Assembly (NCBI GenBank): GCA_902576375.1
Contig: CACGUZ010000001.1
Coordinates: 473,791 to 537,790 of the forward strand
DNA: 64,000 bases
From: an uncultured Pelagibacteraceae bacterium
Lineage (GTDB): Bacteria; Pseudomonadota; Alphaproteobacteria; Pelagibacterales; Pelagibacteraceae
Direction of reading: 5' to 3'
Shown here: positions 16,003 through 61,338 of the stretch, one piece after another
How positions within the stretch are numbered: the stretch's first letter is position 1
How the letters are laid out: each line of letters begins with the position of its first letter
The notes under the pieces: model-generated
What the model was told of the DNA's origin: nothing
What the model saw: only the letters and a program-made list of their open reading frames with translations
Databases searched by the model: none
Translations under genes and position numbers: made by a program

Positions 16003-17334
16003 ATGGATCCACTGATTATAGCATTAATTGTTGCAGTTTTTACTTTATTGGTACTTTTTTCTGGAATTCCAATTGCATTCGGTTTGAGTTTTGTTTCGAT
16101 AGCTCTTTTAGTTACATTTGAAGGTTTTCAAATGCTTGATGTATTTGCTGAAACATTTTTTGCAGGATTAAATTCATTTGTTTTACTTTCTATACCAATG
16201 TTTATTTTAATGGGAATGGCTGTTGCCAACTCTCCTGCTGGAAAAGATTTATATACAGGATTAGATAGATGGCTTTGGAGAGTACCAGGTGGATTGGTAA
16301 TTTCAAATATTGGCGCTTGTTCAATTTTTGCAGCTTTAAGTGGATCTAGTCCTGCAACTTGTGCTGCGATTGGGACAATGGGAATACCTGAAATGAGAAA
16401 AAGAGGTTATTCTGATCAAATCGCAACAGGAACCATTGCAGCAGGTGGAACCTTAGGAGTTTTAATTCCTCCTAGTATTGTTTTAATAGTTTATGGAATT
16501 GCAACGGGTACATCTATTGGAAGATTATTTTTATGTGGTCTTGTACCAGGTTTTATGTTGGCAGGTATGTTTGCGATATGGGCTCTAATACACAGTTATT
16601 TTATTGATAAAGATGCAGCAAAAGCCTTAAGAAATAGAGTAAGACCAACTCTAAAAGAAAAACTTGAAGTTTTACCGAGAATTCTTCCTTTTTTAGCTAT
16701 TATAGCTGGAGTTCTCTATGTACTTTATGGAGGAGTTGCAACACCATCCGAGGCGTCTGGAGTGGGGGCATTCTTAGTTTTTGTATTAATAGCTGTTGTT
16801 TACAAAATTTATCAGCCAAAAAAGATTTGGAACATTGTTAAAGTTTCTATGAAAGAAAGTGTGATGATAATGTTCATTATCGCTGCCTCATATCTTTTTG
16901 CGTTCACTCTTTCACAATTGTATGTAACTCAGTCATTAGCGCAAAGCATGGTCGAATTAAGCTCTAACAAATGGGTTGTGTTCATTTTAATAAACATATT
17001 TCTTTTAATAGCTGGTTTCTTTTTACCACCAGTTGCAGTTATTGTAATGACTTCAGCTATATTACTGCCAGTTATTACTACTTTAGGTTTTGACCCATAT
17101 TGGTTTGCAATAGTATTTACAATCAATATGGAGATTGGCTTAATTACACCACCAGTTGGATTAAATCTTTATATTATAAAAGGAATTACCCCAGATGTTA
17201 GTTTGTCAGAAATATTAAAAGGATCTATACCGTTTATGATAATTATGGCTTTAGCTATAGTAATTTTATGTATTTTTCCTGAGATTGTTACATGGTTACC
17301 TGATAAAATAATGGGTAAAGACCTTGGATTCTAA
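16003..17334 (+). CDS. dctM: TRAP transporter large membrane subunit
   Basis: A 443-residue permease of the DctM/IT superfamily. Landmarks include SIPMFILMGMAVANSPAGKDLY, AALSGSSPATCAAIGTMGIPEM (sodium and substrate region) and PPVGLNLYIIKGI in the C-terminal half. It imports the DctP-bound solute using the sodium gradient. It begins directly after dctQ, and its last 11 nt overlap the likely TTG start of dusA. Confidence 0.92.
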   Translation: MDPLIIALIVAVFTLLVLFSGIPIAFGLSFVSIALLVTFEGFQMLDVFAETFFAGLNSFVLLSIPMFILMGMAVANSPAGKDLYTGLDRWLWRVPGGLVISNIGACSIFAALSGSSPATCAAIGTMGIPEMRKRGYSDQIATGTIAAGGTLGVLIPPSIVLIVYGIATGTSIGRLFLCGLVPGFMLAGMFAIWALIHSYFIDKDAAKALRNRVRPTLKEKLEVLPRILPFLAIIAGVLYVLYGGVATPSEASGVGAFLVFVLIAVVYKIYQPKKIWNIVKVSMKESVMIMFIIAASYLFAFTLSQLYVTQSLAQSMVELSSNKWVVFILINIFLLIAGFFLPPVAVIVMTSAILLPVITTLGFDPYWFAIVFTINMEIGLITPPVGLNLYIIKGITPDVSLSEILKGSIPFMIIMALAIVILCIFPEIVTWLPDKIMGKDLGF

Positions 17335-18328
17335 AAAAAAAATAAACAGAAAAATATCAGTTGCCCCAATGATGGATTGTACTGATAGGCATGATCGTTT
17401 CTTTTTAAGATTGATGAGCAAAAATGTAATGCTCTATACTGAGATGGTTGCAACAAAATCTGCAATTCATGGCGATAGAAAAAAAATTTTATCTTTTAGC
17501 CCTGAAGAAAAACCATTAGCTCTACAAGTAGGTGGATCTAATAAAGAAGAGTTAGCAGAAGTAGCTAAAATTGCAGAAGATATGGGTTATGATGAAGTTA
17601 ATATTAATCTTGGTTGTCCTAGCAAAAAAGTTCAAAAAAATAAATTTGGTGCATGTTTAATTAAAGAACCTGATTTGGTTGCTGAATGTATTAATTCAAT
17701 GGTTAATGCATGTAAAATTCCTGTTACAGCTAAGACAAGAATTGGTTTCGATGATACAGAAGAATTTGATTATTTAAATAATTTTATTCACAAAATGAGA
17801 GATGCTGGTTCAAAAACATTTATATTGCATGCAAGGAAAGCAATCTTGACAGGTTTATCTCCCAAACAAAATTTAAACATTCCAAAATTAAACTATAAAA
17901 TGGTTTATGATATTAAAAAAGAAAATCCTAATTTAGAAATAATTATAAATGGTGGAATCACAAAAGTTGAGGAAATAAATAATCATTTAAAGCTTTGTAA
18001 TGGAGTAATGATAGGAAGATCAATATATCAAAATCCCTATTCTTTAATTGAAATTGAAAAAGAAATATTTAAGACAAAGATAAGTCCTACAAGGGAACAA
18101 GTTGTAGAAAGACTTTTAGAGTATGCTGATAGAGAAGTAAAATTAGGAACAAAAATTAATCATATCATGAGACATACAGTAGGTTTATATCACGGACAAG
18201 TTGGTTCAAAAGAATGGAAAAGATATTTAAGTGACAACATGATGGCAAGAGACTCCGATTTTCAAAAAGCAAAACATATTATGACTATTGTTCAGAATAA
18301 TGAAAAGGCAATTCAGGCCAACTCATAA
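17324..18328 (+). CDS. dusA: tRNA-dihydrouridine synthase A
   Basis: A 334-residue flavin enzyme that reduces U20/U20a in tRNA D-loops. It shows SVAPMMDCTDRHDRFFLRLM, the catalytic Cys in NLGCPSKKVQ, and HARKAILTGLSPKQN, the DusA-specific segment. The track start is TTG inside the end of dctM. The start is uncertain because the first family-like residues begin about ten codons in (ISVAPMMD) and no ATG precedes them. The gene may be translated by coupling from dctM. Confidence 0.92.
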   Translation: MDSKKKINRKISVAPMMDCTDRHDRFFLRLMSKNVMLYTEMVATKSAIHGDRKKILSFSPEEKPLALQVGGSNKEELAEVAKIAEDMGYDEVNINLGCPSKKVQKNKFGACLIKEPDLVAECINSMVNACKIPVTAKTRIGFDDTEEFDYLNNFIHKMRDAGSKTFILHARKAILTGLSPKQNLNIPKLNYKMVYDIKKENPNLEIIINGGITKVEEINNHLKLCNGVMIGRSIYQNPYSLIEIEKEIFKTKISPTREQVVERLLEYADREVKLGTKINHIMRHTVGLYHGQVGSKEWKRYLSDNMMARDSDFQKAKHIMTIVQNNEKAIQANS

Positions 18329-49052: not shown

Positions 49053-49149
49053 CTTGTATTGGTCATTTTCAATCATAAATATTTTGGGTAAACACTCATT
49101 ATATTAATTAAAGCACGCTTAGTGAAATTGACAGACAAAAGACCTTATG
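49053..49149 (+). repeat. decayed copy of tRNA-Leu(UAA) promoter and 5' half
   Basis: The stretch ending AGTGAAATTGACAGACAAAA aligns with the tRNA-Leu 5' half GTGGTGAAATTGGTAGACAC, and the bases before it (CATAAATATT, AAACACTCAT) align with the promoter block of the intact gene. Mismatches and a 1-nt deletion near the anticodon stem show it is no longer functional. It marks the left edge of the oldest visible insertion. The alignment was done by eye. Confidence 0.75.
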
Positions 49150-49183: not shown

Positions 49184-50905
49184 TTATATATTTGATAACC
49201 ACATGGTCTCAAACGGTTTTAATTTAAGAGATTTATTTAAAGAGTTAATTTTGGGGTTAATTATATTTTTCCATTTACAATACTTTTTATTTATTTTTGG
49301 AAATTGATCTACTGAGGTACAATTTGTAATTGATATAATAGTTTGTTTTTTATCTAGACTGATCCTTTTAAAACAAAATAATTTAGATCCTAGATTGATA
49401 TTTAATCTTTTAGCATTAGGGTGAAATGCTTTTTGTTTTCTTTTAATTTCCAGTAATTTTACAAGATTTTGATAAAAAATACTTTGTTTAGAGTTTTTAT
49501 CTTTTAATTTTTTTGTAATATTTTCATAACTCCATTTATATCTATTAATATCTCTATTATTCCCTGTAATTACATATTTTGCTTCATCATTAGATTTGCC
49601 AAATAAAGAGTTGAAATAAATAGCTGGAATACCCTCAAAAGAAATCATTATTGCGTGTGCCGCTAAATATCTTTCTAAAAAAAATTTTCCATTAGGATCA
49701 GAGTCTGAATTTTTTAATGCATCATAAACAGTGATATTTGCTTCATAAACTTTTCTAGATTTATTTTGAACTTTTCTATACGAAAATTTTGATCCATTTT
49801 TTTTTAATCTTTTAAGAAAATCATTTAATGATTTTTTATTTAATATTCCTTCAGTAGGTCTCATGCCAATACCATCATGTGATGCGATGAAATTTAAATA
49901 ACTATTCTTGAATTTAGTATTGGGAAGTTTTTTACTCCACTGGTTAAGATATTGACTATTTTCAAACAAAAAAGCATGGATTAATAAGGGCGGAAGAGAA
50001 AAATTATAAATCCAGTTAGCTTCATCATTTTTACCAAAATAACTTAAATTTTCTTTCTCTGGCAAATTTGTTTCTGTGATTATTATAGTTTCAACGTTTA
50101 AAAGATTACTAATAAGTCTAAGTAGTTTAACTATTTCATGAGTTTGTTTTAAATTAATACAATTGGTACCATTTTTTTTCCAAAGATAGGCAATAGCATC
50201 TAATCTAAAAATTGTGACACCATTACTAACGAGGTGAACCATGATTTTAATAAATCTAAGAAGCACTGATGGGTTTTTAAAATCTAAGTCTATTTGATCA
50301 GCACTAAAAGTTCGCCATAAATAATCAGATTTTTTAAAGATATCTATTTTTTTTAATAATTTGTGATCTCTTGGTCTTACCACTTTAGATGTATTAAATT
50401 TAGAATTAACAGTTAAAAAATAATCCTTGCCAGGTCTTTTTTTTTTTAAAAAATTTTTGAACCATAAACCTCTGGCTGATGAGTGATTGATTACGATATC
50501 GGCCATCACGTGATTAGCTTTTGAAACCTTTTTTATATCAGACCAACTACCTATTCTTTTTTCAATCTTATAATGATCTTTTACAGCAAAACCACTATCA
50601 CTACTGGAAGGATAGAAAGGTAAAAAATGAATAGCATTAAAATATTTTTTTAAATTTTTCTTAAAAAAATTTTGAAAAACTTGAATAGAACTTTTTTGAT
50701 TTGAATTTATGTTATCTCCATAACATATTACCAATGAAGTTTTTTCTGATATAGTAAGTTTTTTTTTTGAATTCTTTTGATTAAATTTTTTGATTATTTG
50801 TATTATTTGATCTTTTAAATGATCAATATCTCTCTCATTTAAAGATGGTTTATAAATAGTCCTTAGTATAGAACTAATTTTTCTTTGGTTTTTTTGAAAT
50901 AGCAT
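49184..50905 (-). CDS. GH13_18-type phosphorylase, probably glucosylglycerate phosphorylase
   Basis: A 573-residue sucrose-phosphorylase-like GH13 enzyme. HFLPFYPSSSDSGFAVKDHY is the subfamily 18 hallmark. MADIVINHSSARGLWF precedes the catalytic nucleophile in IFRLDAIAYLWKK, the acid/base in ITETNLPE and the third carboxylate region FIASHDGIGMRP. Position at the end of a GpgS-phosphatase operon favours glucosylglycerate over sucrose as substrate. It would recover glucose-1-phosphate and glycerate. It overlaps the GpgS gene by 1 nt (TAATG). Confidence 0.78.
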   Translation of the reverse strand: MLFQKNQRKISSILRTIYKPSLNERDIDHLKDQIIQIIKKFNQKNSKKKLTISEKTSLVICYGDNINSNQKSSIQVFQNFFKKNLKKYFNAIHFLPFYPSSSDSGFAVKDHYKIEKRIGSWSDIKKVSKANHVMADIVINHSSARGLWFKNFLKKKRPGKDYFLTVNSKFNTSKVVRPRDHKLLKKIDIFKKSDYLWRTFSADQIDLDFKNPSVLLRFIKIMVHLVSNGVTIFRLDAIAYLWKKNGTNCINLKQTHEIVKLLRLISNLLNVETIIITETNLPEKENLSYFGKNDEANWIYNFSLPPLLIHAFLFENSQYLNQWSKKLPNTKFKNSYLNFIASHDGIGMRPTEGILNKKSLNDFLKRLKKNGSKFSYRKVQNKSRKVYEANITVYDALKNSDSDPNGKFFLERYLAAHAIMISFEGIPAIYFNSLFGKSNDEAKYVITGNNRDINRYKWSYENITKKLKDKNSKQSIFYQNLVKLLEIKRKQKAFHPNAKRLNINLGSKLFCFKRISLDKKQTIISITNCTSVDQFPKINKKYCKWKNIINPKINSLNKSLKLKPFETMWLSNI

Positions 50906-52125
50906 TAAGAATGTTTTTTATTATCATCATTAACTACTTTTTCAAGTCTTCCAAGAAAATCTGGTATAGCACTTTTTACTCTGCTCCATGTAGGGATAAA
51001 AGGAGTATCCATTGGATTTTGAATAAATGCTTCTCCAGCTTTCATTATATTTATTGCAAATAACTCAACAGCTTTTTCTTCCGTGTGCGAGTCTAACTCT
51101 AGACCATTCATCGCTGCATCACTTCTATAAATATCAATAAGATCAAGAGCAGATCTATAATATGTTGCTTTTAATGATCTAAATTTTTCTCTACTAAACG
51201 TATTACCTTGAGTAGCCAATTTTTTGATAAATGTTTTTATGATATCTATAGACATTCTAGACAATCCTTTCGTTTCATCATCTAAAGATAGAACCTGATG
51301 TTTGTGATCGTATGTATCAGCTAAATCAACTTGGCAAATATTCTGTGGGGAGAAGCTTCTTTGCATTTCAGATAAAATTCCCACTTCAATTCCCCAATCA
51401 GATGAAATTCTTAACTCCGGTAAAACATTTCTTCTAAATGAAAACTCTCCAGCCAAGGGGTATTTAAAAGATTTCATAAAGTTTAAGTAATCACTTTTAC
51501 CAATCGTTTTCTCTAAAGCTGTTAATAACGGAAAAACAAGCAATCTTGCTACTCTTCCATTCATTTTATTATTTGCTACCCTTGGATAATATCCCTTACA
51601 AAACTCAAAATTAAAAAGAGGATTTACAACTGGATAAAAAAGTTTTGCAAGCATTCTTCTATCATAAGTTTTGATATCACAATCATGCAAAGCAACTGAA
51701 CGAGCACTATCTCTTGCAATACACATACCAATGCAATACCAAACATTTCTTCCTTTCCCTAGCTCACTAGGAGCCAGATTATTTTTTTTTAATTCTTGAT
51801 CAAGATTTTTTAATGCTGGACCATCATTCCAAAGGATAGAAAAGGGGGTTTTTAATTTTTTAAAAAATTTCCAAGCTTTTTTTGCTTGAGCTTCATTTGC
51901 TTTATCTAACCCAATAATTATATGATCTAAATATTTAGTTTTACTAATTTCATCAACAATTTTTGGTAAAGCTTCTCCCTCCAATTCAGAATAAAGACAT
52001 GGTAAAATTAATTCCATTTTTCTTTGTTTAGAAAATTTAGATAATTCATTTTCTATGACTGAAGTGGACTTAGTCCCAAAGTCATGTAAAGTTGAGATTA
52101 TTCCATTTTGTGAAAAGTCACCCAT
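50905..52125 (-). CDS. gpgS: glucosyl-3-phosphoglycerate synthase (GT81)
   Basis: A 406-residue GT-A enzyme. It shows MELILPCLYSELEGEALPKI (nucleotide-binding start), GKGRNVWYCIGMCIARDS and the metal-binding ALHDCDIKTYDRRML. The acceptor-site segment KGYYPRVANNKMNGRVARLLV is characteristic of GpgS/MpgS-like enzymes. It transfers glucose from an NDP-glucose to 3-phosphoglycerate. The C-terminal helical extension (from about residue 290) is also typical. It is the middle gene of the cassette, 14 nt after the phosphatase gene. Confidence 0.85.
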   Translation of the reverse strand: MGDFSQNGIISTLHDFGTKSTSVIENELSKFSKQRKMELILPCLYSELEGEALPKIVDEISKTKYLDHIIIGLDKANEAQAKKAWKFFKKLKTPFSILWNDGPALKNLDQELKKNNLAPSELGKGRNVWYCIGMCIARDSARSVALHDCDIKTYDRRMLAKLFYPVVNPLFNFEFCKGYYPRVANNKMNGRVARLLVFPLLTALEKTIGKSDYLNFMKSFKYPLAGEFSFRRNVLPELRISSDWGIEVGILSEMQRSFSPQNICQVDLADTYDHKHQVLSLDDETKGLSRMSIDIIKTFIKKLATQGNTFSREKFRSLKATYYRSALDLIDIYRSDAAMNGLELDSHTEEKAVELFAINIMKAGEAFIQNPMDTPFIPTWSRVKSAIPDFLGRLEKVVNDDNKKHS

Positions 52126-52139
52126 GGCGGCTTTTTATC

Positions 52140-52940
52140 TTAATAGCCCAATTTAAGTAGTGCCGTTTTGATCACATCAGCCCAGCCTTCAGGTGATGGC
52201 TTGTTTGAAAATATAAGATTATCAATGTTTATTTGATCTTGAATAAATTGATCATTGAACACTAGGCAAGGGATGTCACAACTTTTTAACATATCTAGAT
52301 CATTATAATTGTCGCCAACTGCAATGGTCTTAATTTTATCCTCAGTTTTTTTTAAAATTTTTATAACTCTATTCATGGATTTAACTTTATTAATATTATC
52401 ACAAAGGTTTAAAACACGCCCACCTTCTTGAAGCGTTAATGAATTAGAATTTAAAATTTTTAATAATTTATTTTTCTCATTTTTGTCTCCTTTAAATAAA
52501 AAAGGTAAAGTATACTTTCTATTTAAAGCATCTTTGAGTTTCACATCCTTTTGTCCTAAAATATTTTCTTGCTCTTTTTTACTCATTTTTGAAATTTGAA
52601 AACATTTTTCTTTCAATTTTTCAGGAACTTTATTTTTAAAAATCTTAATTAGTTCTTCTTTCTCTCGGCTAAGGACAAGTTTATCTGGAAAATTAGAGGT
52701 TATTAAATTTAATCCATGAATAGATGATCCATTTTCTGATATAAAAGGAAGATTTATTCCAAGCTCTTCATTAAATTTTTCAATTTCTTTTTCTGTTTTG
52801 CTAGAGTTTGGAACGATGATTATCCCCTTGCTTACAAGACTTTTTATATAATCCTTAATAGTATCGAATTTAAAGGTATCCCTGTGCAAAAGAGATCCAT
52901 CTAAATCGGTAAAAATTACAACTGTAAATTTTTTTTTCAT
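52140..52940 (-). CDS. HAD phosphatase of the mannosyl/glucosyl-3-phosphoglycerate phosphatase family
   Basis: A 266-residue Cof-type HAD phosphatase. Motif I is VIFTDLDGSLLHRD, followed by IVPNSSKTEKEIEKF and the ISENGSSIHG loop of MpgP proteins. GGRVLNLCDNINKVKSMNRVI and AVGDNYNDLDML complete the set. It should dephosphorylate the GpgS product to glucosylglycerate, a compatible solute. It is the first gene of the leftward cassette and starts about 40 nt from the tRNA-Leu half-site block. Confidence 0.82.
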   Translation of the reverse strand: MKKKFTVVIFTDLDGSLLHRDTFKFDTIKDYIKSLVSKGIIIVPNSSKTEKEIEKFNEELGINLPFISENGSSIHGLNLITSNFPDKLVLSREKEELIKIFKNKVPEKLKEKCFQISKMSKKEQENILGQKDVKLKDALNRKYTLPFLFKGDKNEKNKLLKILNSNSLTLQEGGRVLNLCDNINKVKSMNRVIKILKKTEDKIKTIAVGDNYNDLDMLKSCDIPCLVFNDQFIQDQINIDNLIFSNKPSPEGWADVIKTALLKLGY

Positions 52941-52977
52941 TTCTTCTATTACTACATATATAGTAGAAAATTTAAAA

Positions 52978-53077
52978 TTTACTTATTAGACTTGTTCAAT
53001 TATAAATATTAGCATAAACACTCATGAAATTCATTAATGCCCTCGTGGTGAAATTGGTAGACACAAAGGACTTAAAA
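52978..53077 (+). repeat. tRNA-Leu(UAA) promoter plus 5' half, copy 1 (junction A/B)
   Basis: This 100-nt block matches 60,416-60,515 at about 95 positions by eye. The tRNA part (53,039-53,077) is identical over 39 nt and stops right after the anticodon loop CTTAAAA. The next bases (AACATAGG) are unrelated to the tRNA 3' half. The promoter TTTACT-N17-TATAAA (52,978-53,006) is intact, so a half-tRNA transcript is likely. Confidence 0.93.
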
Positions 53078-53100
53078 AACATAGGGTAGAGATATTTTAT

Positions 53101-53126
53101 AGTCTCACACAGTCTCAGACAGTCTT
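53101..53126 (+). repeat. three 10-bp-spaced AGTC direct repeats, left end of unit B
   Basis: AGTCTCACAC, AGTCTCAGAC and AGTCTT repeat with an exact 10-bp period, 24 nt inside the junction. Unit C has the same arrangement at the same place. One repeat per helical turn suggests cooperative protein binding. Confidence 0.75.
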
Positions 53127-53203
53127 AAATCTCATTAAATCCTACATTTTAATAAGATGTTAAATTATTTATATTGAAAAATTTGAATAATAAATTCGTT
53201 CAA

Positions 53204-53234
53204 ACTAGAAGCCAACTAGAAGTTAAAGAGATAA
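53204..53234 (+). repeat. left-end ACTAGAAGC repeat pair of unit B
   Basis: ACTAGAAGCC and ACTAGAAGTT lie 10 nt apart and are followed by AAAGAGATAAA. Nearly the same sequence occurs at the right end (57,632-57,664). Unit C uses ACTAGGATCT at the equivalent place. Confidence 0.8.
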
Positions 53235-53237
53235 ATA

Positions 53238-53702
53238 TTAATTTGCTGATGTGTTTTTGATTATATAATCATAAGATTGTTGGTTTATCTTACAAACACC
53301 TCCTTGAAAATATAATCCATATATGTTTCTTTTCTTTTCATCAATAAAACTCAAATTATTTATATGTTCTCTGATATTGATCGGTTTTTGAAAGTATTTG
53401 AAATCTTTGAATTTTACATTAAATAAAACTTGTTTAAACTCTTGGTTAGGATCAACAGTTGTTTCTTTTAAATCTACCACTTCATCAATAAGGGCGTTAG
53501 CAATAAAGTTTTGAGCAAAGTTATTTGTTCCAGCAATGTAAAAAAGAACTTTTTTATCTTTTTTAATATTAATTAGTTGTGGAGTTTTATTATAAATCGG
53601 CCACATATTATTTTTGATTCTTTCTTTAAAAATTTCGTATCCTTCCCTTTTTCCATCGGAGGATATAAAAATAAGATGATTTGACTCAATATTATCTCTC
53701 AT
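53238..53702 (-). CDS. EVE-like (PUA/YTH superfamily) protein
   Basis: A 154-residue protein beginning HLIFISSDGKREGYEIFKER, with WPIYNKTPQLINIKKDKKVLFYIAG, INNLSFIDEKKRNIYGLYFQGG and a final helix YDYIIKN. The order fits EVE-domain proteins, which bind modified cytosines in DNA and are often found near McrBC or restriction-modification genes. The assignment is by motif memory only. It faces away from the methyltransferase pair, with 39 nt between starts. It could read the 5-methylcytosine made next door. Confidence 0.55.
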   Translation of the reverse strand: MRDNIESNHLIFISSDGKREGYEIFKERIKNNMWPIYNKTPQLINIKKDKKVLFYIAGTNNFAQNFIANALIDEVVDLKETTVDPNQEFKQVLFNVKFKDFKYFQKPINIREHINNLSFIDEKKRNIYGLYFQGGVCKINQQSYDYIIKNTSAN

Positions 53703-53741
53703 AAATATGATATATATTATATAGACTCAAAATCTCAAAAT

Positions 53742-54665
53742 ATGAAATTAAATGTATTAAGTTTATTTGACGGTATAGGTTGCTCAAGATTAGCACTAAA
53801 CAAATGCTCCAATATAAAAGTTAATAAGTATTTTTTTTCAGAGATAGATAAAAATTGCATAAAGCTTACGAAATCTAAATTTCCAGATGATATATATCTA
53901 GGTCCGGTTGAAAATATAGATATTAAAAAATTGCCTAAAATTGATTTACTGATTGGTGGAAGTCCATGTCAAGATTTAAGCAATGCACATATGGGTGATG
54001 GAATAAATGGAGTAAGATCATCTTTATTTTATCAATTTGTAAAATTAAAAAATAGATTAAAACCAAAATATTTCCTTCTAGAGAATGTTAAAAATAAATG
54101 GTCAAAGTTAATGAATAAGGAAATAGGAATAGAAGGAATTGAGCTAAATTCAATGTATTTATCTGGTCAATATAGACCACGCGTATATTGGACAAATATA
54201 GATTTTGACGAAATTAATTTTGATAAAAAGAATAAAACTATCAAGGATTATTTGGAAAAAAAAGCTGATAAGAAATATTACTTCGATATAGATATTAATA
54301 AAATCCAAAAAATAAATAAATCAAATAAATTGAAACATGGTATTAATAAAATTTGTTTAATTCCAAGAAATCTTCTCAAAGACAATGAAAGACAGAGAAG
54401 GGTGTATGATATTAGAGGTAAGTCCCCAACATTATTAGCAAGGTCTGATACTCCAAAAATACTAATTAATAATAAAATTAGAAAACTCACACCTTTAGAG
54501 TGTGAGAGATTGCAAGGATTACCAGATAATTATACAGCGAAATTTAGTAACACAACCAGGTATAAAATGATTGGCAATGGTTTTACTGTTCAAGTAATAA
54601 AATATATATTGAGTTTTGTTAGTAAAAAAACAACAAAAAAAAAACAATTAGAATTATTTCATTGA
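53742..54665 (+). CDS. DNA (cytosine-5) methyltransferase 1
   Basis: A 307-residue C5-MTase. Motif I is LSLFDGIGCSRLAL, motif IV with the catalytic Cys is GGSPCQDLS, motif VI is FLLENVKNK, motif VIII is QYRPRVYWTN, motif IX includes LTPLECERLQGLPD and motif X is IGNGFTVQVIKYI. The GGSPC form of motif IV recalls Dnmt3-like and phage-type enzymes more than M.HhaI. The target-recognition region is short (about residues 170-235). The C-terminus KKKQLELFH looks like a beta-clamp-binding peptide. It overlaps the second methyltransferase by 4 nt. Confidence 0.88.
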   Translation: MKLNVLSLFDGIGCSRLALNKCSNIKVNKYFFSEIDKNCIKLTKSKFPDDIYLGPVENIDIKKLPKIDLLIGGSPCQDLSNAHMGDGINGVRSSLFYQFVKLKNRLKPKYFLLENVKNKWSKLMNKEIGIEGIELNSMYLSGQYRPRVYWTNIDFDEINFDKKNKTIKDYLEKKADKKYYFDIDINKIQKINKSNKLKHGINKICLIPRNLLKDNERQRRVYDIRGKSPTLLARSDTPKILINNKIRKLTPLECERLQGLPDNYTAKFSNTTRYKMIGNGFTVQVIKYILSFVSKKTTKKKQLELFH

Positions 54666-55636
54666 AGTTCATAGATTTATTTTCGGGTATTGGAGGATTT
54701 AGATTAGCATTAGAAAAATCAAAATTTGAATGTGTATTTAGTGCAGACAACAATAAATATGCTTGTGAAACTTACAATAAAAATTTTAAAGAATATCCAT
54801 TAATAGATATAAAGAAATTATCAGCAAAGAAAATCCCAAATCATGATATTCTTTGTGCCGGATTTCCATGCCAACCGTTTAGTATTGCAGGTAAAAGAAA
54901 AGGTTTTGATGACACAAGAGGAACTTTATTTTTTGATATTGTTAGAATTTTAAAAGAAAAAAAACCAAAAGTTTTTATTTTAGAAAACGTAAAAGGTTTA
55001 ATTAGTCATAACAAAGGTAAGACTTTTAAAAAGATTTTAAATATTTTATCCAAAAAATTTAATGGAAATATTAATAAATCAAATAGGGAAAATTTAGGAT
55101 ACAATGTTTTCTGGAAAGTCTTAAATTCAACTAATTTTAATATTCCTCAAAATAGAGAAAGAGTATTCATAATTGGTTTTACAGATCAAAAAATTAATTT
55201 TGAATTCCCTAAAAGTCTTAAACTAAAATATACTTTAAATGATATAATTAAAATTAAACCAAAAAAAATTAGAAGAATTTCAAAATTATCCAAAGGTTAT
55301 ATAGATAAACACTTAAGAAAACACAAAAGTTACAATAAGATAAAGAATCTTAATTATTTAGTAGCTAATGAAGTTAGAAAATCTAGATGTAATTTTAGAT
55401 TTGATAATATAAGTCCTTGTTTGACTACCAAAATGGGAACTGGTGGAAATAATGTTCCTTATCTAGTGAATCAAAATAGATTTTATACTTTAGAAGAATG
55501 TCTTTTAATCCAAGGATTTCCTAAAAGTTTTAAGCTTACAAATAATTATACTGAAGCTTTAAAACAAATTGGGAATTCTGTTAGTGTGCCTGTAATTAAC
55601 TCCTTAGTTCAACAAATAAAAAAAAAAATTAAATAG
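54662..55636 (+). CDS. DNA (cytosine-5) methyltransferase 2
   Basis: A 324-residue C5-MTase with a TTG start overlapping the previous gene. Motif I is FIDLFSGIGGFRLALE, motif IV is CAGFPCQPFSIAGKRKGF, motif VI is FILENVKGL, motif VIII is IPQNRERVFIIGF and motif X is QIGNSVSVPVI. It resembles M.HaeIII/M.HhaI-type enzymes and is clearly not a duplicate of its partner, so each may modify a different strand or site. It converges with the endonuclease-like genes with an 8-nt overlap. Confidence 0.92.
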   Translation: MKFIDLFSGIGGFRLALEKSKFECVFSADNNKYACETYNKNFKEYPLIDIKKLSAKKIPNHDILCAGFPCQPFSIAGKRKGFDDTRGTLFFDIVRILKEKKPKVFILENVKGLISHNKGKTFKKILNILSKKFNGNINKSNRENLGYNVFWKVLNSTNFNIPQNRERVFIIGFTDQKINFEFPKSLKLKYTLNDIIKIKPKKIRRISKLSKGYIDKHLRKHKSYNKIKNLNYLVANEVRKSRCNFRFDNISPCLTTKMGTGGNNVPYLVNQNRFYTLEECLLIQGFPKSFKLTNNYTEALKQIGNSVSVPVINSLVQQIKKKIK

Positions 55637-56411
55637 GTTTGAATTCAACTTGAGGTCTCGTCCCACCCTTGCTACTTCCTTTTGTAACAATAAGATCTGT
55701 AGGGATGTTTTTAGTTAATTCATTATTAATTAAAAGCCATGTTGCACAATAAGGATCCTCAAATTCATCAGTTCCTTTATATAAAGAATCTAATATTTTT
55801 GGATCATTTATTGCCATAGATTTAATTTGTTCGTTTGAGTTTTTTTGTATTTTCTCAAAAACTTTTTTATGTTCTTCATTAAATTTTGTTTTTATATTTA
55901 TATTTTCTAAAGTTTTATTATTAAAATTTTCACCAAATTCCTTCCATGAAGTATTAGTTGCTTTTAAAACATTATGATTTTTTATTAAATCTCTTATATC
56001 TTTGCTATAGATGGTTGCACCAATGAATAAAAACTTATCTTTGAATCTTTTTACAAATTTTTCCAAAGAACACTTATCTATTTGATAATTAGTTTTATTC
56101 ATTTTTATAGAAATACCAGATTGAGGTATCTTTTTAATAAACTTTAACTTCTGATTTTCATTGATAAGATAATCATTACTTTCTAATTCTTTTTCACTTA
56201 AATTGATTTCACTTACAAAAACATCAGTTTTACAAGGTATTTTTTTATTAGTGAGTTTAGAGATCTTACTTCCAGCTACTCGTACAAAATATAAGTTTTT
56301 ATTATTTGCTAAATTAATCGTTTTCCAGATCTGATGGCCTTTGTTTGAGTTAAGTTTTTTTACAAACTCTTCCTCATTCTTAAAACCATCTAAAGCTTTA
56401 TTTGATGTCAT
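55629..56411 (-). CDS. probable restriction endonuclease subunit (R2)
   Basis: I start at ATG 56411 (MTSNKALDGFK), 24 codons inside the track ORF, giving 260 residues. The stretch PCKTDVFV followed about 35 residues later by SGISIKM fits the D...(S)xK layout of a PD-(D/E)xK nuclease core, and KTD with ISxK is common in type II endonucleases. The C-terminus KGSSKGGTRPQVEFKP also looks nuclease-like. It overlaps the upstream endonuclease-like gene by 14 nt and converges on the methyltransferases. Assignment is by motif and context. Confidence 0.58.
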   Translation of the reverse strand: MTSNKALDGFKNEEEFVKKLNSNKGHQIWKTINLANNKNLYFVRVAGSKISKLTNKKIPCKTDVFVSEINLSEKELESNDYLINENQKLKFIKKIPQSGISIKMNKTNYQIDKCSLEKFVKRFKDKFLFIGATIYSKDIRDLIKNHNVLKATNTSWKEFGENFNNKTLENINIKTKFNEEHKKVFEKIQKNSNEQIKSMAINDPKILDSLYKGTDEFEDPYCATWLLINNELTKNIPTDLIVTKGSSKGGTRPQVEFKPI

Positions 56412-57135
56412 TATAAGGATCCGACCATTTAAATTGAATATTTGTTGATCTTTTTTTATTTTGTGCTTGAAAAGAAAGTGCACCTACATTGCAACTAGAA
56501 TTAGATAGGTTATTGACTAAATAATTAACAATGCTTGTATGATTCGCAAAAACACATCTTTCAATTTTATTTATTCTATCGCTTTTTGAGTCAGATGATT
56601 CAAGTTTTGGACAAAAGCAATAATAATTAACTTTTGGCTCACCGTAAATTCCTGATAGAACCCTATCAATTATTTTTTGTTTATTCTTTTTTAGCAGTTG
56701 ATGAAATTCAGTGTCTTTTAAGGCTTTATTTTTTTGATTTTTATCTCTTAAAAATCTTTTTAAAAAACCAATAATTTCATTATTAGCATTTAAATCATCT
56801 TTTAAAAATTTTACAAACGTCTCTTCTTGTTCCTCATGAAAAGCATTCCCCTTACCAGACTTAACACTTATTCTAAATTCTTTATTCATTATCTTAAAAA
56901 TTTTATCAGTTTTAGGGCTACCCTTTATCTTAATTTTTAAGTTTTCTTTATTAAATTTTTTTATTTTAATTATAGTTTCTTTTTTTAACTCAATATCATT
57001 CTCATTACATATGAAATAGATAAATTTTTTTAGATTAGATGTTTTAAGATCAACAATCTTTTTATTATTAAGATATTCCTCAATTAAAGCTTCTGTTTTA
57101 AACCCTTCATTTATACCTTTTATTTTTAGTGTCAT
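56398..57135 (-). CDS. probable restriction endonuclease subunit (R1)
   Basis: A 245-residue soluble protein. EFRISVKSGKGNAFHEEQEETFVKFL resembles the SxKxGxGNSVHQE element that I associate with a group of type II restriction endonucleases, and the C-terminus LSFQAQNKKRSTNIQFKW matches the FQ..N...xxxIQxKW ending of the same group. It is coupled by overlap to the second nuclease-like gene. The 143-nt gap to the next ORF on the right holds an A+T-rich spacer with no clear feature. Confidence 0.58.
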   Translation of the reverse strand: MTLKIKGINEGFKTEALIEEYLNNKKIVDLKTSNLKKFIYFICNENDIELKKETIIKIKKFNKENLKIKIKGSPKTDKIFKIMNKEFRISVKSGKGNAFHEEQEETFVKFLKDDLNANNEIIGFLKRFLRDKNQKNKALKDTEFHQLLKKNKQKIIDRVLSGIYGEPKVNYYCFCPKLESSDSKSDRINKIERCVFANHTSIVNYLVNNLSNSSCNVGALSFQAQNKKRSTNIQFKWSDPYNDIK

Positions 57136-57278
57136 TTATTTCTAAGAATATATAGGATAGCCAAAAACCGTAGAGATAAAATTCAAATTTTTTTGTAAAT
57201 ACTCAAATTTTTGCCACTTTTATTCACTATATTACTAATTGTTAAAGTTTTATTTCTAACTTTAATAACTTCAAATAT

Positions 57279-57611
57279 ATGCAACAACTTGAACTGTTTG
57301 ATTACAGAAAAGATTATCTTTTTGAAAGAGATAATAAAGTAGCTCATTATTACGATATATTAAAAGAGAATAAAGACACTATCAGCTATTCAGAACACAT
57401 TGACCCTAAAAAAAAATTTTCTATATGTGGTTTAGATTATGAAGAATATGTAGACATAAAAAAATCAGATTTGAAGGGATTAAATTATGATAAAATATAC
57501 AATTTCCTAACTAAGTTTGATAAGGAGCATAGGTTGGAGAGATACAAACAACTACTTATATTTAATGAAATAAAATTTGAAGCTGATGTGTTTACCTGGT
57601 GTAGTGATTGA
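57279..57611 (+). CDS. small protein of unknown function, with N-terminal QLELF
   Basis: A 110-residue charged, probably helical protein that I do not recognise. It begins MQQLELFDYRKDY, so a QLxLF beta-clamp-binding-like peptide is at its very N-terminus, the same five residues that end methyltransferase 1. It has no signal peptide or membrane segment. It lies between the endonuclease genes and the right-end repeats of unit B, a position where mobile elements often carry a recombination or regulatory factor. No such function is visible. Confidence 0.55.
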   Translation: MQQLELFDYRKDYLFERDNKVAHYYDILKENKDTISYSEHIDPKKKFSICGLDYEEYVDIKKSDLKGLNYDKIYNFLTKFDKEHRLERYKQLLIFNEIKFEADVFTWCSD

Positions 57612-57631
57612 TTATTGGATTTTATAGGATA

Positions 57632-57664
57632 ACTAGAAGCTAACTAGAAGCCAGAGAGATAAAA
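57632..57664 (+). repeat. right-end ACTAGAAGC repeat pair of unit B
   Basis: ACTAGAAGC and ACTAGAAGCC lie 11 nt apart, followed by AGAGAGATAAAAT. It matches the left-end pair of the same unit in the same orientation. It is followed within 10 nt by the regenerated promoter block. Confidence 0.82.
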
Positions 57665-57673
57665 TAAAAAAAA

Positions 57674-57773
57674 TTTACTTATTCATCTTGTTCAATTATA
57701 AATAGTAGCATAAACACTCATGAAAATAACTCATGCCCTCGTGGTGAAATTGGTAGACACAAAGGACTTAAAA
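57674..57773 (+). repeat. tRNA-Leu(UAA) promoter plus 5' half, copy 2 (junction B/C)
   Basis: This 100-nt block again matches the intact locus at about 95 positions and exactly over the 39-nt tRNA half (57,735-57,773). TTTACT-N17-TATAAA is intact at 57,674-57,702. After the anticodon loop the sequence continues TAGTTTGAG instead of the tRNA 3' half. The first gene of unit C lies 168 nt downstream on the same strand, so this stranded promoter could transcribe it. Confidence 0.93.
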
Positions 57774-57796
57774 TAGTTTGAGTTGAGAAATTTCAG

Positions 57797-57826
57797 AGTC
57801 TCTAATAGTCCCTAATAGTCTAAATC
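57797..57826 (+). repeat. three 10-bp-spaced AGTC direct repeats, left end of unit C
   Basis: AGTCTCTAAT, AGTCCCTAAT and AGTCTAAATC repeat with an exact 10-bp period, 23 nt inside the junction. The arrangement copies that of unit B, although the surrounding sequence differs. Confidence 0.75.
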
Positions 57827-57898
57827 CCTTATAATCACATAACTTTTAAAATCATTAGATTATTTTTATTGGAAAATATGAACAATAAATTTTGCCAA

Positions 57899-57920
57899 AC
57901 TAGGATCTGACTAGGATCTG
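57899..57920 (+). repeat. left-end ACTAGGATCT repeat pair of unit C
   Basis: ACTAGGATCTG occurs twice in tandem, 11 nt apart. The same motif recurs at the right end of unit C (60,374-60,400) and not in unit B. Confidence 0.82.
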
Positions 57921-57940
57921 TATGTATGATATCTTGTGTA

Positions 57941-58873
57941 ATGAAAAAATTTACAGTTTTTTTAATTTCAACTATTTTAATATTTAACTCATTCACCACA
58001 ACTGTTTTAGCATCTACTGTTATTAAAAAGATTAAAATTCATCAAATCACTAGTTGTGAAAAATATTTAAATACAAATTTTGAAAAATATATTGAATGTT
58101 TAAATGAGGAAGTTTTTACCTCAACATATTTTGCAAAATTATCTAAAAATAAAAAGAATGATATTCAAAGTCTTTTAGCTATTTCTAATATATTACAAGA
58201 AAATGTGGAAGATGGTTTTATTTCCGATAAAAAAGTTCTCTTAATATGGAATCAAATATTAAATAGTCCCTATAAAGCAAAGATCAAAAAGAAGGAGTTA
58301 CAAAAAGTTTTAGAACAAACTACTTGTATGGATGAAGAGGACTATGAGCCATTCATAAAATGCTTTGCTAACCAATTTAGAAACTTTGAAATTTATCAAA
58401 AATCAGATTTATTAAATAAAAGGAGAATAGAAACGATTGTGAGTAACGCTCTATATTTAACTGTGCCCAATTCAAAGGTTTATGCTTTTGCTAGAAATGA
58501 AAGTATGAGTGGTACCACCTATTCTTCAAATGAAGGATTCAATTACTTTTTGACTTATATGAATTATTTAGGCACAGACTACTTTAAAAAAGTTAAAAAT
58601 GATGTTGATTGGAATAAAATTATTAAGTTTATCATCATTGCCATAATAGTTGCTTATTTATCAAAAAGTTTGATGAAGTCTATTGGTGGAAAATCTTCAA
58701 GTGGAGCTAGCTCATCCTCATCTGCTGCTAGCACAGGATCTGGTGGATGTAGTTCAGCTCTTGTGGGAAGATGTACTTCTATCTTTCAACAAAATATGTT
58801 TAGAAATGCACCTGCAACAAGTGTTTTGAGAAAACCTTGGTTTAGATATGGTTTTACAAGAGGATTTTTTTAG
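57941..58873 (+). CDS. exported protein of unknown function with C-terminal membrane segment
   Basis: I start at ATG 57941 (MKKFTVFLISTILIF), five codons inside the track ORF, because it gives a clean signal peptide; the protein is then 310 residues. Two related Cys-pair segments occur, SCEKYLNTNFEKYIECLNEE and TCMDEEDYEPFIKCFANQF, suggesting an internal helical repeat with disulfides. A membrane segment (IIKFIIIAIIVAYLSKSL) is followed by a Ser/Gly-rich linker and a basic-aromatic tail (RKPWFRYGFTRGFF). I do not recognise a family. It shares one base with the next gene. Confidence 0.7.
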   Translation: MKKFTVFLISTILIFNSFTTTVLASTVIKKIKIHQITSCEKYLNTNFEKYIECLNEEVFTSTYFAKLSKNKKNDIQSLLAISNILQENVEDGFISDKKVLLIWNQILNSPYKAKIKKKELQKVLEQTTCMDEEDYEPFIKCFANQFRNFEIYQKSDLLNKRRIETIVSNALYLTVPNSKVYAFARNESMSGTTYSSNEGFNYFLTYMNYLGTDYFKKVKNDVDWNKIIKFIIIAIIVAYLSKSLMKSIGGKSSSGASSSSSAASTGSGGCSSALVGRCTSIFQQNMFRNAPATSVLRKPWFRYGFTRGFF

Positions 58874-59646
58874 TGAGAATTTTACTTACTCTATTGTTTA
58901 TTTTTACTCAGGGAGAATTGTTTGCCAAAGAATTTAAATGGAAGTTTAAGGAAAGAATAAAACATGATGATTATTATGAAGCAATAGGCACAGGAACAAA
59001 AAAAGTAAAAATTGACGGAAAGAATAAAAAAGTAAAATTTAAAATTACGGAATATTATCCTTTAAGCACAGAATTAAATGAAAAAGAGGGTAGGTGTAAA
59101 GAATTTAGAATTCAAAAAATTTCAACAGGAGGAACCATTCTGGAAAAAAATTACTCTTTAAATGATTGTTTACCTTGCATTGACAAAGGATCAGGTCATA
59201 TGTGTTCTTATCCGTACTATCAAGTATTTTATCGTTATGGTGATTACGGAATTTTTGATAAAAATTACGAGGCAATTAGTAATAACAAAGATGTTACAAA
59301 AGATGGAGCAAAATTAGTCTATATATCAATAAATATTGGCTCTAGGGAACAAGTAAGATTTTCAGAAACTTACCCAGGTCTTGAAAGTTTAGGTTTAGGT
59401 GAGATACGTTTTTTTAATAGTCAAATTTTTAAATACAACACACGACTTAGAAAAATTCAGTCAGAAAAATCAAAATTAAAAAGAACTCAAAGCCAAGTAT
59501 TTGAAATGGTTTTTAATAGAATTAAAAACAATACATTAAAAAATATTAATACTAAAACGAAAATAAATATTAGAGAAAAAGATTTAAAAATTTTGTTTAC
59601 TGCAGAACCTTCTTTATCAATTACAAAATTTCAAACAAGAGACTGA
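58873..59646 (+). CDS. exported protein of unknown function
   Basis: A 257-residue protein starting at GTG that shares its first base with the previous stop. The N-terminus RILLTLLFIFTQGELFA is a signal peptide. The mature part is Lys-rich, with Cys residues in KEGRCKEF, LNDCLPCIDKGSGHMCSYPYYQVFYRYGDYG and no recognisable domain. Its translational coupling to the upstream exported, membrane-linked protein suggests the two act together. It ends exactly where the convergent gene ends, with no spacer. Confidence 0.68.
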   Translation: MRILLTLLFIFTQGELFAKEFKWKFKERIKHDDYYEAIGTGTKKVKIDGKNKKVKFKITEYYPLSTELNEKEGRCKEFRIQKISTGGTILEKNYSLNDCLPCIDKGSGHMCSYPYYQVFYRYGDYGIFDKNYEAISNNKDVTKDGAKLVYISINIGSREQVRFSETYPGLESLGLGEIRFFNSQIFKYNTRLRKIQSEKSKLKRTQSQVFEMVFNRIKNNTLKNINTKTKINIREKDLKILFTAEPSLSITKFQTRD

Positions 59647-60312
59647 TTATAATTGTTTGCACTTTTCGACAATTGTTGCATAATTTCCACCTTTAGTTTT
59701 ATGAATACCATCTTTATTTACTGTATCTAAATCAACAAGTGCAAAGGGTTTTCCAAAATCTAGTTCCTTAGAAACAATATTATAGGCTTTATCACTCCAT
59801 GTGGCTAAAGCATTATCAAAATTTTCCTCCGGTTCTGATTGTTGTATTTTGTTCCATTTTTTTAACATTTCATATGGTTCATTAGCAGAATTATTTTTCA
59901 CCCAATAAACCCATTCTTGAATGCCAAATTTTTTTAATTTTGATTTTATTAAAATTTTAAGTATTACTCCGTTTTCTAAATTAGACTCTTCCATTATTGG
60001 TGTAAAATCCATATACAGCATAAATTTACTATTATTAAAATCTAACTCAAATTTTTTTACCACAGAATCTGGATTTCCAGTAGATCCCATTGTTCCATCA
60101 ATTCCCTCCATATCTGACCAATAATTATATTTGAATAATTTACCATTTATTTCCTTATAAGAAATGTAACTTTTTTTATTAGCATTACCTAAGCATTCAT
60201 AATTTTCATCCATATCTGATTGTTTTTTGCCCATATAATCTAGAGATGACTCCGCTAAAGAAAAATTATTAAAAAGGAAACTTAACATTATGAGTAAAAA
60301 TGTTTTTTTCAT
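59647..60312 (-). CDS. exported protein of unknown function
   Basis: I start at ATG 60312 (MKKTFLLIMLSFLFNNFSLAES), which begins a standard signal peptide; the protein is 221 residues. The mature chain has ECLGNANKKSYISYKEINGK and a C-terminal EKCKQL, so a single Cys pair could close the fold. Its aromatic, acidic composition suggests a periplasmic or surface protein. No family is recognised. It faces the other two unit C genes and begins 62 nt from the right-end repeats. Confidence 0.66.
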   Translation of the reverse strand: MKKTFLLIMLSFLFNNFSLAESSLDYMGKKQSDMDENYECLGNANKKSYISYKEINGKLFKYNYWSDMEGIDGTMGSTGNPDSVVKKFELDFNNSKFMLYMDFTPIMEESNLENGVILKILIKSKLKKFGIQEWVYWVKNNSANEPYEMLKKWNKIQQSEPEENFDNALATWSDKAYNIVSKELDFGKPFALVDLDTVNKDGIHKTKGGNYATIVEKCKQL

Positions 60313-60373
60313 AAAATAATTATACAATTTCTAATATTTTTCAGAAAGATAATTTATAGGATTTTATAGGATT

Positions 60374-60400
60374 ACTAGGATCTCTCTAGGATCTAGGGAG
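60374..60400 (+). repeat. right-end ACTAGGATCT repeat pair of unit C
   Basis: ACTAGGATCT and CTCTAGGATCT lie 10-11 nt apart, followed by AGGGAGATAAAAT. They match the left-end pair of unit C in the same orientation and sit at the same place relative to the promoter block as the unit B pair does. Confidence 0.82.
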
Positions 60401-60415
60401 ATAAAATAAAAAAAT

Positions 60416-60444
60416 TTTACTTATTCATCTTGTTCAATTATAAA
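60416..60444 (+). promoter_or_regulatory. promoter of tRNA-Leu(UAA)
   Basis: TTTACT (60,416-60,421), a 17-nt spacer and TATAAA (60,439-60,444) lie about 30 nt before the mature tRNA 5' end. Both boxes and the spacing are conserved in the two good half-site copies. Confidence 0.75.
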
Positions 60445-60476
60445 TATTAGCATAAACACTCATGAAATTCACAAAT

Positions 60477-60562
60477 GCCCTCGTGGTGAAATTGGTAGAC
60501 ACAAAGGACTTAAAATCCTTGCCGCTTGCGGAGTGCCAGTTCGAGTCTGGCCGAGGGCACCA
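60477..60562 (+). tRNA. tRNA-Leu (anticodon UAA), CCA encoded
   Basis: GCCCTCG pairs with CGAGGGC as acceptor stem, followed by discriminator A and an encoded CCA. The D-arm is GTGAAATTGGTAGAC, the anticodon stem AAGGA/TCCTT encloses loop CTTAAAA (anticodon TAA), a long class II variable arm (GCCGCTTGCGGAGT) follows and the T-arm is GCCAGTTCGAGTCTGGC. All stems pair, so this is the functional copy. nadK begins 5 nt after the CCA. Confidence 0.96.
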
Positions 60563-60567
60563 TTAAA

Positions 60568-61338
60568 ATGAGTAAGATCCAAATTATTTCTGATAAAAAT
60601 AGTAGGTCATCAAACATTAAAAAATCATTAATTAAAACATTAAAAAAAAATGAGATAAAAAAATCAAATCTAGCAATTGTTATTGGTGGTGATGGTTTTA
60701 TGCTTCAAACTTTAAAAAAGAATAAAAATTCAAAAAAATCTTTTTATGGAATAAATTCTGGAAATTATGGTTTTTTAATGAATAAATATTCATCAAAGAA
60801 TTTAATTAAAAATTTATCAAAAGCGAAGATGATTTCTATTTCACCATTAGAAATGACAGTTAGTAACAAGAATAATCAAATCAAAAAACACATAGCAATT
60901 AATGAGGTATCAATTTTACGACAAAGCCGTCAAGCAGCATCGTTATCAATAGATTCTGGACATAAAAAACTAATTAAAAATTTAGTTTCCGATGGTGTTC
61001 TGGTTTCTACACCTGCTGGAAGCACAGCTTATAATTTATCTGTGCATGGACCAATATTAGGTCTCAATTCAAAAAAGTTGTCAATCTCACCCATAAGTGC
61101 CTTTAGACCACGTAGATGGAAAGGAAAGATAGTAAATGATAGCTCAAAAATAACGATTAAAAATTTAAATCCTAAAAAAAGACCCATTAGTGCAGTAGCT
61201 GATAATATTGAAGTAAGAAATGCCAAAAAGATAACAATTAAAACAAGTAAGAATATTAAATTTAATCTTCTATATGATAAAAATCGAAGTTTACAGAAGA
61301 AAATTAAGATAGAACAAATTAGAAGAGAAACATTTTGA
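60568..61338 (+). CDS. nadK: NAD kinase
   Basis: I start at ATG 60568 (MSKIQIISDKNS), because the track start lies inside the tRNA; the protein is 256 residues. AIVIGGDGFMLQTLK is the NAD kinase GGDG motif, YGINSGNYGFLMN follows it, and LVSDGVLVSTPAGSTAYNLS is the NE/D-TPxGSTAY region. SPISAFRPRRWKGKIV is also conserved. It phosphorylates NAD to NADP. Its mRNA may be processed from a tRNA-Leu readthrough transcript, given the 5-nt spacing. Confidence 0.92.
   Translation: MSKIQIISDKNSRSSNIKKSLIKTLKKNEIKKSNLAIVIGGDGFMLQTLKKNKNSKKSFYGINSGNYGFLMNKYSSKNLIKNLSKAKMISISPLEMTVSNKNNQIKKHIAINEVSILRQSRQAASLSIDSGHKKLIKNLVSDGVLVSTPAGSTAYNLSVHGPILGLNSKKLSISPISAFRPRRWKGKIVNDSSKITIKNLNPKKRPISAVADNIEVRNAKKITIKTSKNIKFNLLYDKNRSLQKKIKIEQIRRETF

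Follow-up and report, generated by a model that had tools for sequence, protein, structure and literature searches.

We consider it highly probable that the window, that is the whole 64,000-nt stretch of SAR11 DNA analysed here, contains at least two, and probably three, small integrative elements arranged in tandem in the anticodon loop of a tRNA-Leu(TAA) gene, that these elements swap the promoter and 5' half of this gene for their own, and that their integrase is most likely supplied in trans. The intact tRNA gene was called at 60477-60562 (coordinates are those of the window and refer to the forward strand unless otherwise mentioned). No second tRNA-Leu(TAA) copy was found in the whole assembly (1.17 Mb in 18 contigs; G+C content of the window 29.5%), the gene being single-copy. 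Genome size, base composition and the likeness of this tRNA-Leu to that of pelagiphage HTVC105P point to a SAR11/Pelagibacter genome. It is followed by a NAD kinase gene (60568-61338; NCBIfam NF003406, 4.5e-96). The tRNA region was matched in 113 of 150 relatives and 53 loci were retrieved for comparison, mostly from draft genomes with one per species, in which tandem arrays are easily misassembled. The upstream genes c1-c2 and the downstream NAD kinase are conserved across the loci compared, the latter being kept in 50 of 54 loci, and in L083 and L084 c2 is followed by the tRNA gene with no extra gene between them.

The promoter block and the 39-nt 5' half of the intact gene recur at 52974-53077 (94% identity over 104 nt, E 8e-41) and at 57612-57774 (90% over 163 nt, E 2e-59), the latter copy with about 60 nt of additional upstream homology. 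The first of these half-sites (A) is composed of a promoter/leader block (52974-53038, sharing 94% identity with that of the intact gene and lacking a right arm on its left) and of a 5' tRNA half (53039-53077, 100% identical over 39 nt); the 5' half of the second (B) occupies 57735-57773. A preliminary description of this locus had stated that both good half-sites end exactly after CTTAAAA, and the final A of the anticodon loop, 7 nt in length, is indeed where the likeness to the intact gene ends (CTTAAAA at 53071-53077, at 57767-57773 and, in the intact gene, at 60509-60515), copy B matching the intact gene for one base beyond this core. The span that it singled out, 52978-53126, takes in the promoter block and 5' half together with the next element's first arm repeats, and the AGA/CAT difference that it reported at 52988 is real, the same triplet being hypervariable across all elements. 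A third half-site, made of a promoter remnant and a 5' tRNA half, is found further to the left (49057-49147; 74%, E 6e-8) and is decayed, as is usual for leftmost halves. With this more decayed half to its left, half-site A probably does not represent the oldest half on the chromosome.

Two elements with recognisable arms follow, neither of which encodes an integrase. Element 1 (53078-57773, 4696 bp) carries type II restriction-modification cargo, namely two cytosine-5 DNA methyltransferase genes (53742-55636; Pfam PF00145, 2e-47 and 8e-92) and, on the reverse strand, the N and C parts of a type II restriction enzyme in two overlapping frames (55629-57135; PADLOC REase_II PDLC03402, 2e-19 and 2e-9). 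Since a single 527-aa model is matched by both frames, this gene is split or frameshifted. The left arm of element 1 (53101-53124) displays AGTC at 53101, 53111 and 53121, with a 10-bp spacing and at the conserved positions +24/+34/+44, and is followed by the repeat pair CTAGAAGC/CTAGAAGT, 11 bp apart (53205-53223). Its right arm (57612-57669) contains AGGAT at 57627, CTAGAAGC at 57633 and 57644 and GAGATAAA at 57656, and leads into its promoter/leader block (57670-57734) and 5' tRNA half B. Element 2 (57774-60515, 2742 bp) carries three genes of unknown function. Its left arm (57797-57820) has AGTC at 57797, 57807 and 57817, and its left repeat pair (57900-57918) is CTAGGATC repeated 11 bp apart. 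The right arm of element 2 (60358-60405) comprises AGGAT at 60358 and 60368, CTAGGATC at 60375 and 60386 and GAGATAAA at 60398; its promoter/leader block (60412-60476) now lies ahead of the intact tRNA gene, whose 5' half (60477-60515) belongs to the same element. Between the decayed half-site and half-site A lies an older module (49184-52940, reverse strand) encoding GH13/sucrose-phosphorylase-like, glucosyl-3-phosphoglycerate synthase and HAD phosphatase proteins, in which arms are not recognisable. The same glucosylglycerate-type osmolyte genes are present in L044 and L049, likewise between half-sites and with unrecognisable arms, and the osmolyte-gene module of these three loci is probably an ancient, settled element. 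Elsewhere, one element (L035:4042-9450) carries as cargo about ten tandem pilin-like genes (N-terminus FTLIELLVVVAIIGILAAVGV).

The arm design recognised in the window recurs among the relatives. To the right of the core, AGTC is found at +24, +34 and +44 in 33, 30 and 27 of 40 displaced half-sites, respectively. Farther out, both ends of an element bear two direct repeats of 8-9 nt, set 11 bp apart, whose sequence differs from element to element (CTAGAAGC, CTAGGATC, CCAGTACC, CTCGTACA and others). The repeats agree between the two ends of one element in all 28 cases where both pairs are readable, a result equalled in none of 100,000 shuffles, although the match score is a generous one, 18.5% of unrelated pairs also scoring 8/8; in L061, the repeats at the two ends are visibly different by eye. 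Across a common half-site, in seven pairs of adjacent elements, the match is weaker (5-7 of 8). As the repeat pairs match within and differ between elements, each promoter with its 5' half is part of the element lying to the left of it. On this reading, every element carries one attachment module of about 270 bp, which comprises, in this order, a right arm made of AGGAT repeats, the element-specific repeat pair and GAGATAAA, then a 65-nt promoter/leader block, the 39-nt 5' tRNA half with CTTAAAA at its end, and a left arm of three AGTC at 10-bp spacing and the same repeat pair. In L052, a cargo-less element of 267 bp (17249-17515) is reduced to this attachment module with one repeat pair, and it would seem that nothing beyond the module is required in cis. 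We tentatively read the element-specific repeats as sites of a directionality or replication protein provided by a helper. In L080 (15630-17327), the intact tRNA gene has a quite different promoter and the arms are unrecognisable, which looks as though another element family had used the same loop.

The preliminary description had proposed that the elements supply the promoter and the 5' half and that the native 3' half is retained, and this polarity is borne out by the following evidence. In the filled locus L050, gene c23 and a native promoter come before the left half, and this promoter aligns with those of the unoccupied sites L076, L081 and L082, which share the same upstream neighbour gene; the intact tRNA gene of L050 bears the element-type promoter and not the native one. 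Repeat matching, as described above, assigns each promoter and 5' half to an element. Of 26 loci, 10 have a mutated leftmost half-site; among the 26 occupied sites, none has a mutation in the 5' half that belongs to the intact tRNA gene. Finally, the allele of the 3' half (60516-60562 in the window) tracks the adjoining NAD kinase (protein identity 0.78 versus 0.70; 0 of 2000 permutations), whereas no such tracking is seen for the promoter block in armed sites (rho -0.12). The opposite reading, in which the foreign half-site is the left one, the 3' half comes from the element and the intact tRNA gene retains its own promoter, would correspond to the usual arrangement of such islands (3760 of the 3919 in Islander) and finds an echo in about 22 viral contigs carrying the 3' half alone of a very similar tRNA. 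It is at odds with all of this evidence and with the lack of any displaced 3' tRNA half in 54 loci, and we rejected it, on the filled/unoccupied comparison and host tracking, as having hardly any chance of being right. In the viral contigs in question (L161-L187, for example L172:5730-5762, L172 having a T7-like look), the 3' half of the near-identical tRNA-Leu (AAAATCCTTGCC...CACCA) is fused to a conserved CAGACCACAAA..GTAGCGAAAGCTATAGTGGTA, which amounts to the opposite polarity at the same loop. With the polarity in which the element brings promoter and 5' half, recombination in the 7-nt loop pushes the resident promoter and 5' half leftward, where both decay, and joins the promoter block and 5' half of the incoming element to the native 3' half, as the filled and unoccupied sites show when compared.

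It could be argued that gains and losses in the arrays are due mainly to homologous recombination, acting on the repeated promoter and 5' half (about 107 bp), rather than to site-specific integration. The homology between half-sites reaches well past the 7-nt core, and the cargo-less unit of L052, with its single repeat pair, could equally be the outcome of a deletion between left and right repeats. We nevertheless regard this explanation as distinctly improbable in view of the fixed arm geometry, the matched end repeats, the endpoints always situated at the loop and the existence of integrase-coding circles of like design (see below). Moreover, the promoter of the displaced half in L050 clearly differs from that of the element, so that entry there needed no promoter homology.

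The further proposal of the preliminary description, that an element must carry a working tRNA promoter, holds for the position of the carried block, which belongs to the element and sits where a promoter would; its activity is presumptive, the forward strand of the block yielding no match in a scan for the sigma-70 consensus. Nor did a clear shared promoter motif emerge when 14 other tRNA genes from this genome were compared. Promoter-like stretches do precede the tRNA half carried by two phages, the cyanophage P-SSP7 (TTGTTA-16-TATAAT) and HTVC105P (TTGAAG-17-TATACA), and fit the idea that elements using the 5' half bring promoters. The promoters of some unarmed sites are 82-97% similar to the element block, which makes capture of this block from a host probable.

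No PF00589 integrase match was obtained at the arrays in 54 genomes, nor is there one among the cargo of the window. Integrases were found on three IMG/VR contigs with exact terminal overlaps, L088 (7.70 kb), L103 (7.85 kb) and L107 (8.91 kb), these overlaps indicating circles or concatemers. All three encode related tyrosine integrases, and L088 in addition an AEP primase/helicase (AEP primase/DUF5906). L088 and L103 have the arm geometry of the window elements, with AGTC at +24/+34/+44 and GAGATAA near -119, and L107 has AGTC at +34/+44. Because L088-type circles share this attachment-site geometry, it is likely that an integrase of this type mobilises the window elements in trans. The promoter blocks of the L088 type differ from those of the window type, however, and the true helper may therefore be an unseen relative of L088. 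The L088-type integrase was found neither in the 150 relatives nor in two scans of genome-contig collections, and that of L088 was not encountered in annotated phage records; a search of viral contigs for the exact pattern of the window-type right arm returned none. Solved structures searched with the integrase profile gave no match, and the predicted structure has a mean pLDDT of 34. The membership of L088, L103, L107 and the fragment L096 in IMG/VR is no more than suggestive of carriage in phage particles or vesicles. L096 (3765-5129) is a T4-like phoH contig on which cargo genes, a window-type right arm, a promoter block and a 5' tRNA half are followed by another reading frame; it is either a phage into which a portion of an element has come or an assembly chimera.

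Integrases of temperate pelagiphages of the HTVC019P type might also be thought to move the elements, since they use the same tRNA-Leu core with the same polarity; HTVC105P, whose host is Ca. Pelagibacter, and MedDCM-OCT-S35-C6 both combine an integrase, a promoter-like stretch and an identical 5' half. We disfavour this explanation, which appears unlikely, because the pelagiphage attP sites are devoid of the AGTC, AGGAT and repeat-pair arms that L088-type circles possess. The window elements also differ from such phages in their sizes of 2.7 and 4.7 kb, in the lack of phage genes and in their arms.

SAR11 genomes are streamlined and few prophages or islands are known in them. The site described here is a hot spot, filled in many of the relatives examined by cargo units of a few kb without an integrase of their own, and it bears on how SAR11 acquires cargo genes, restriction-modification in the window and other genes elsewhere. 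Since the reaction exchanges the promoter region of a tRNA gene that exists in one copy, the range of elements that persist should be limited by selection on that region. With so small and sharply bounded a module, integrase, repeat-binding and promoter functions can each be tested separately. A broader generalisation, to which we give slightly less than even chances, is that SAR11 harbours a class of integrase-less elements whose sole defining feature is one attachment module of about 270 bp, that a helper protein reads the private repeat pair of each element, so that many element classes share one tRNA target and one promoter-swapping reaction, and that every insertion replaces the promoter of the only tRNA-Leu(UAA) gene.

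The tycheposons of Prochlorococcus are likewise elements with cargo, in some cases satellite-like, that reside at tRNA genes in a streamlined ocean bacterium. The window elements resemble them in being bounded by a tRNA gene and in their variable cargo. Compared by description, tycheposons have a tyrosine recombinase, which the window elements lack; L088-type circles encode a divergent one. A secondary description of the Prochlorococcus tycheposons is given in PMC10872708. The L088-type circles also have the genome make-up of phage satellites, being small, with an integrase and a replication gene and, among the seven proteins of L088 scanned, no capsid match. Restored bacterial tRNA genes use the original promoter with very few exceptions (reviewed in PMC8371274), and among the 3,919 islands in Islander those with a 5' tDNA fragment number only 159 (PMC4383910). 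These islands resemble the window in their intact tRNA gene, displaced 5' fragment and anticodon-loop crossover (PMC4383910), and in the window the intact gene and the displaced fragment likewise lie at opposite ends in the same orientation. Islander, however, demands an integrase gene inside the island, which the window elements do not have. For archaeal elements of the pTN3 type, the target is similarly a tRNA 5' half, and expression of the restored gene therefore comes from the element side (PMC8371274), but they have suicidal integrases that are split by integration, whereas the window elements carry no integrase gene. A close likeness is with P-SSP7, a T7-like cyanophage whose integration into tRNA-Leu was demonstrated by PCR (PMC8776855), and with HTVC105P: in both, attP comprises a promoter-like stretch and a tRNA-Leu 5' half ending in CTTAAAA, as in the window. 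In contrast to the window elements, both are whole phages with their own integrase beside attP, without AGTC arms or element-specific repeat pairs. An integrase-less SAR11 element family with one attachment module and element-specific repeats is apparently new, no description of it having been found in the literature searched. The promoter and 5'-half polarity is rare but not new, P-SSP7 and HTVC105P being its precedents.
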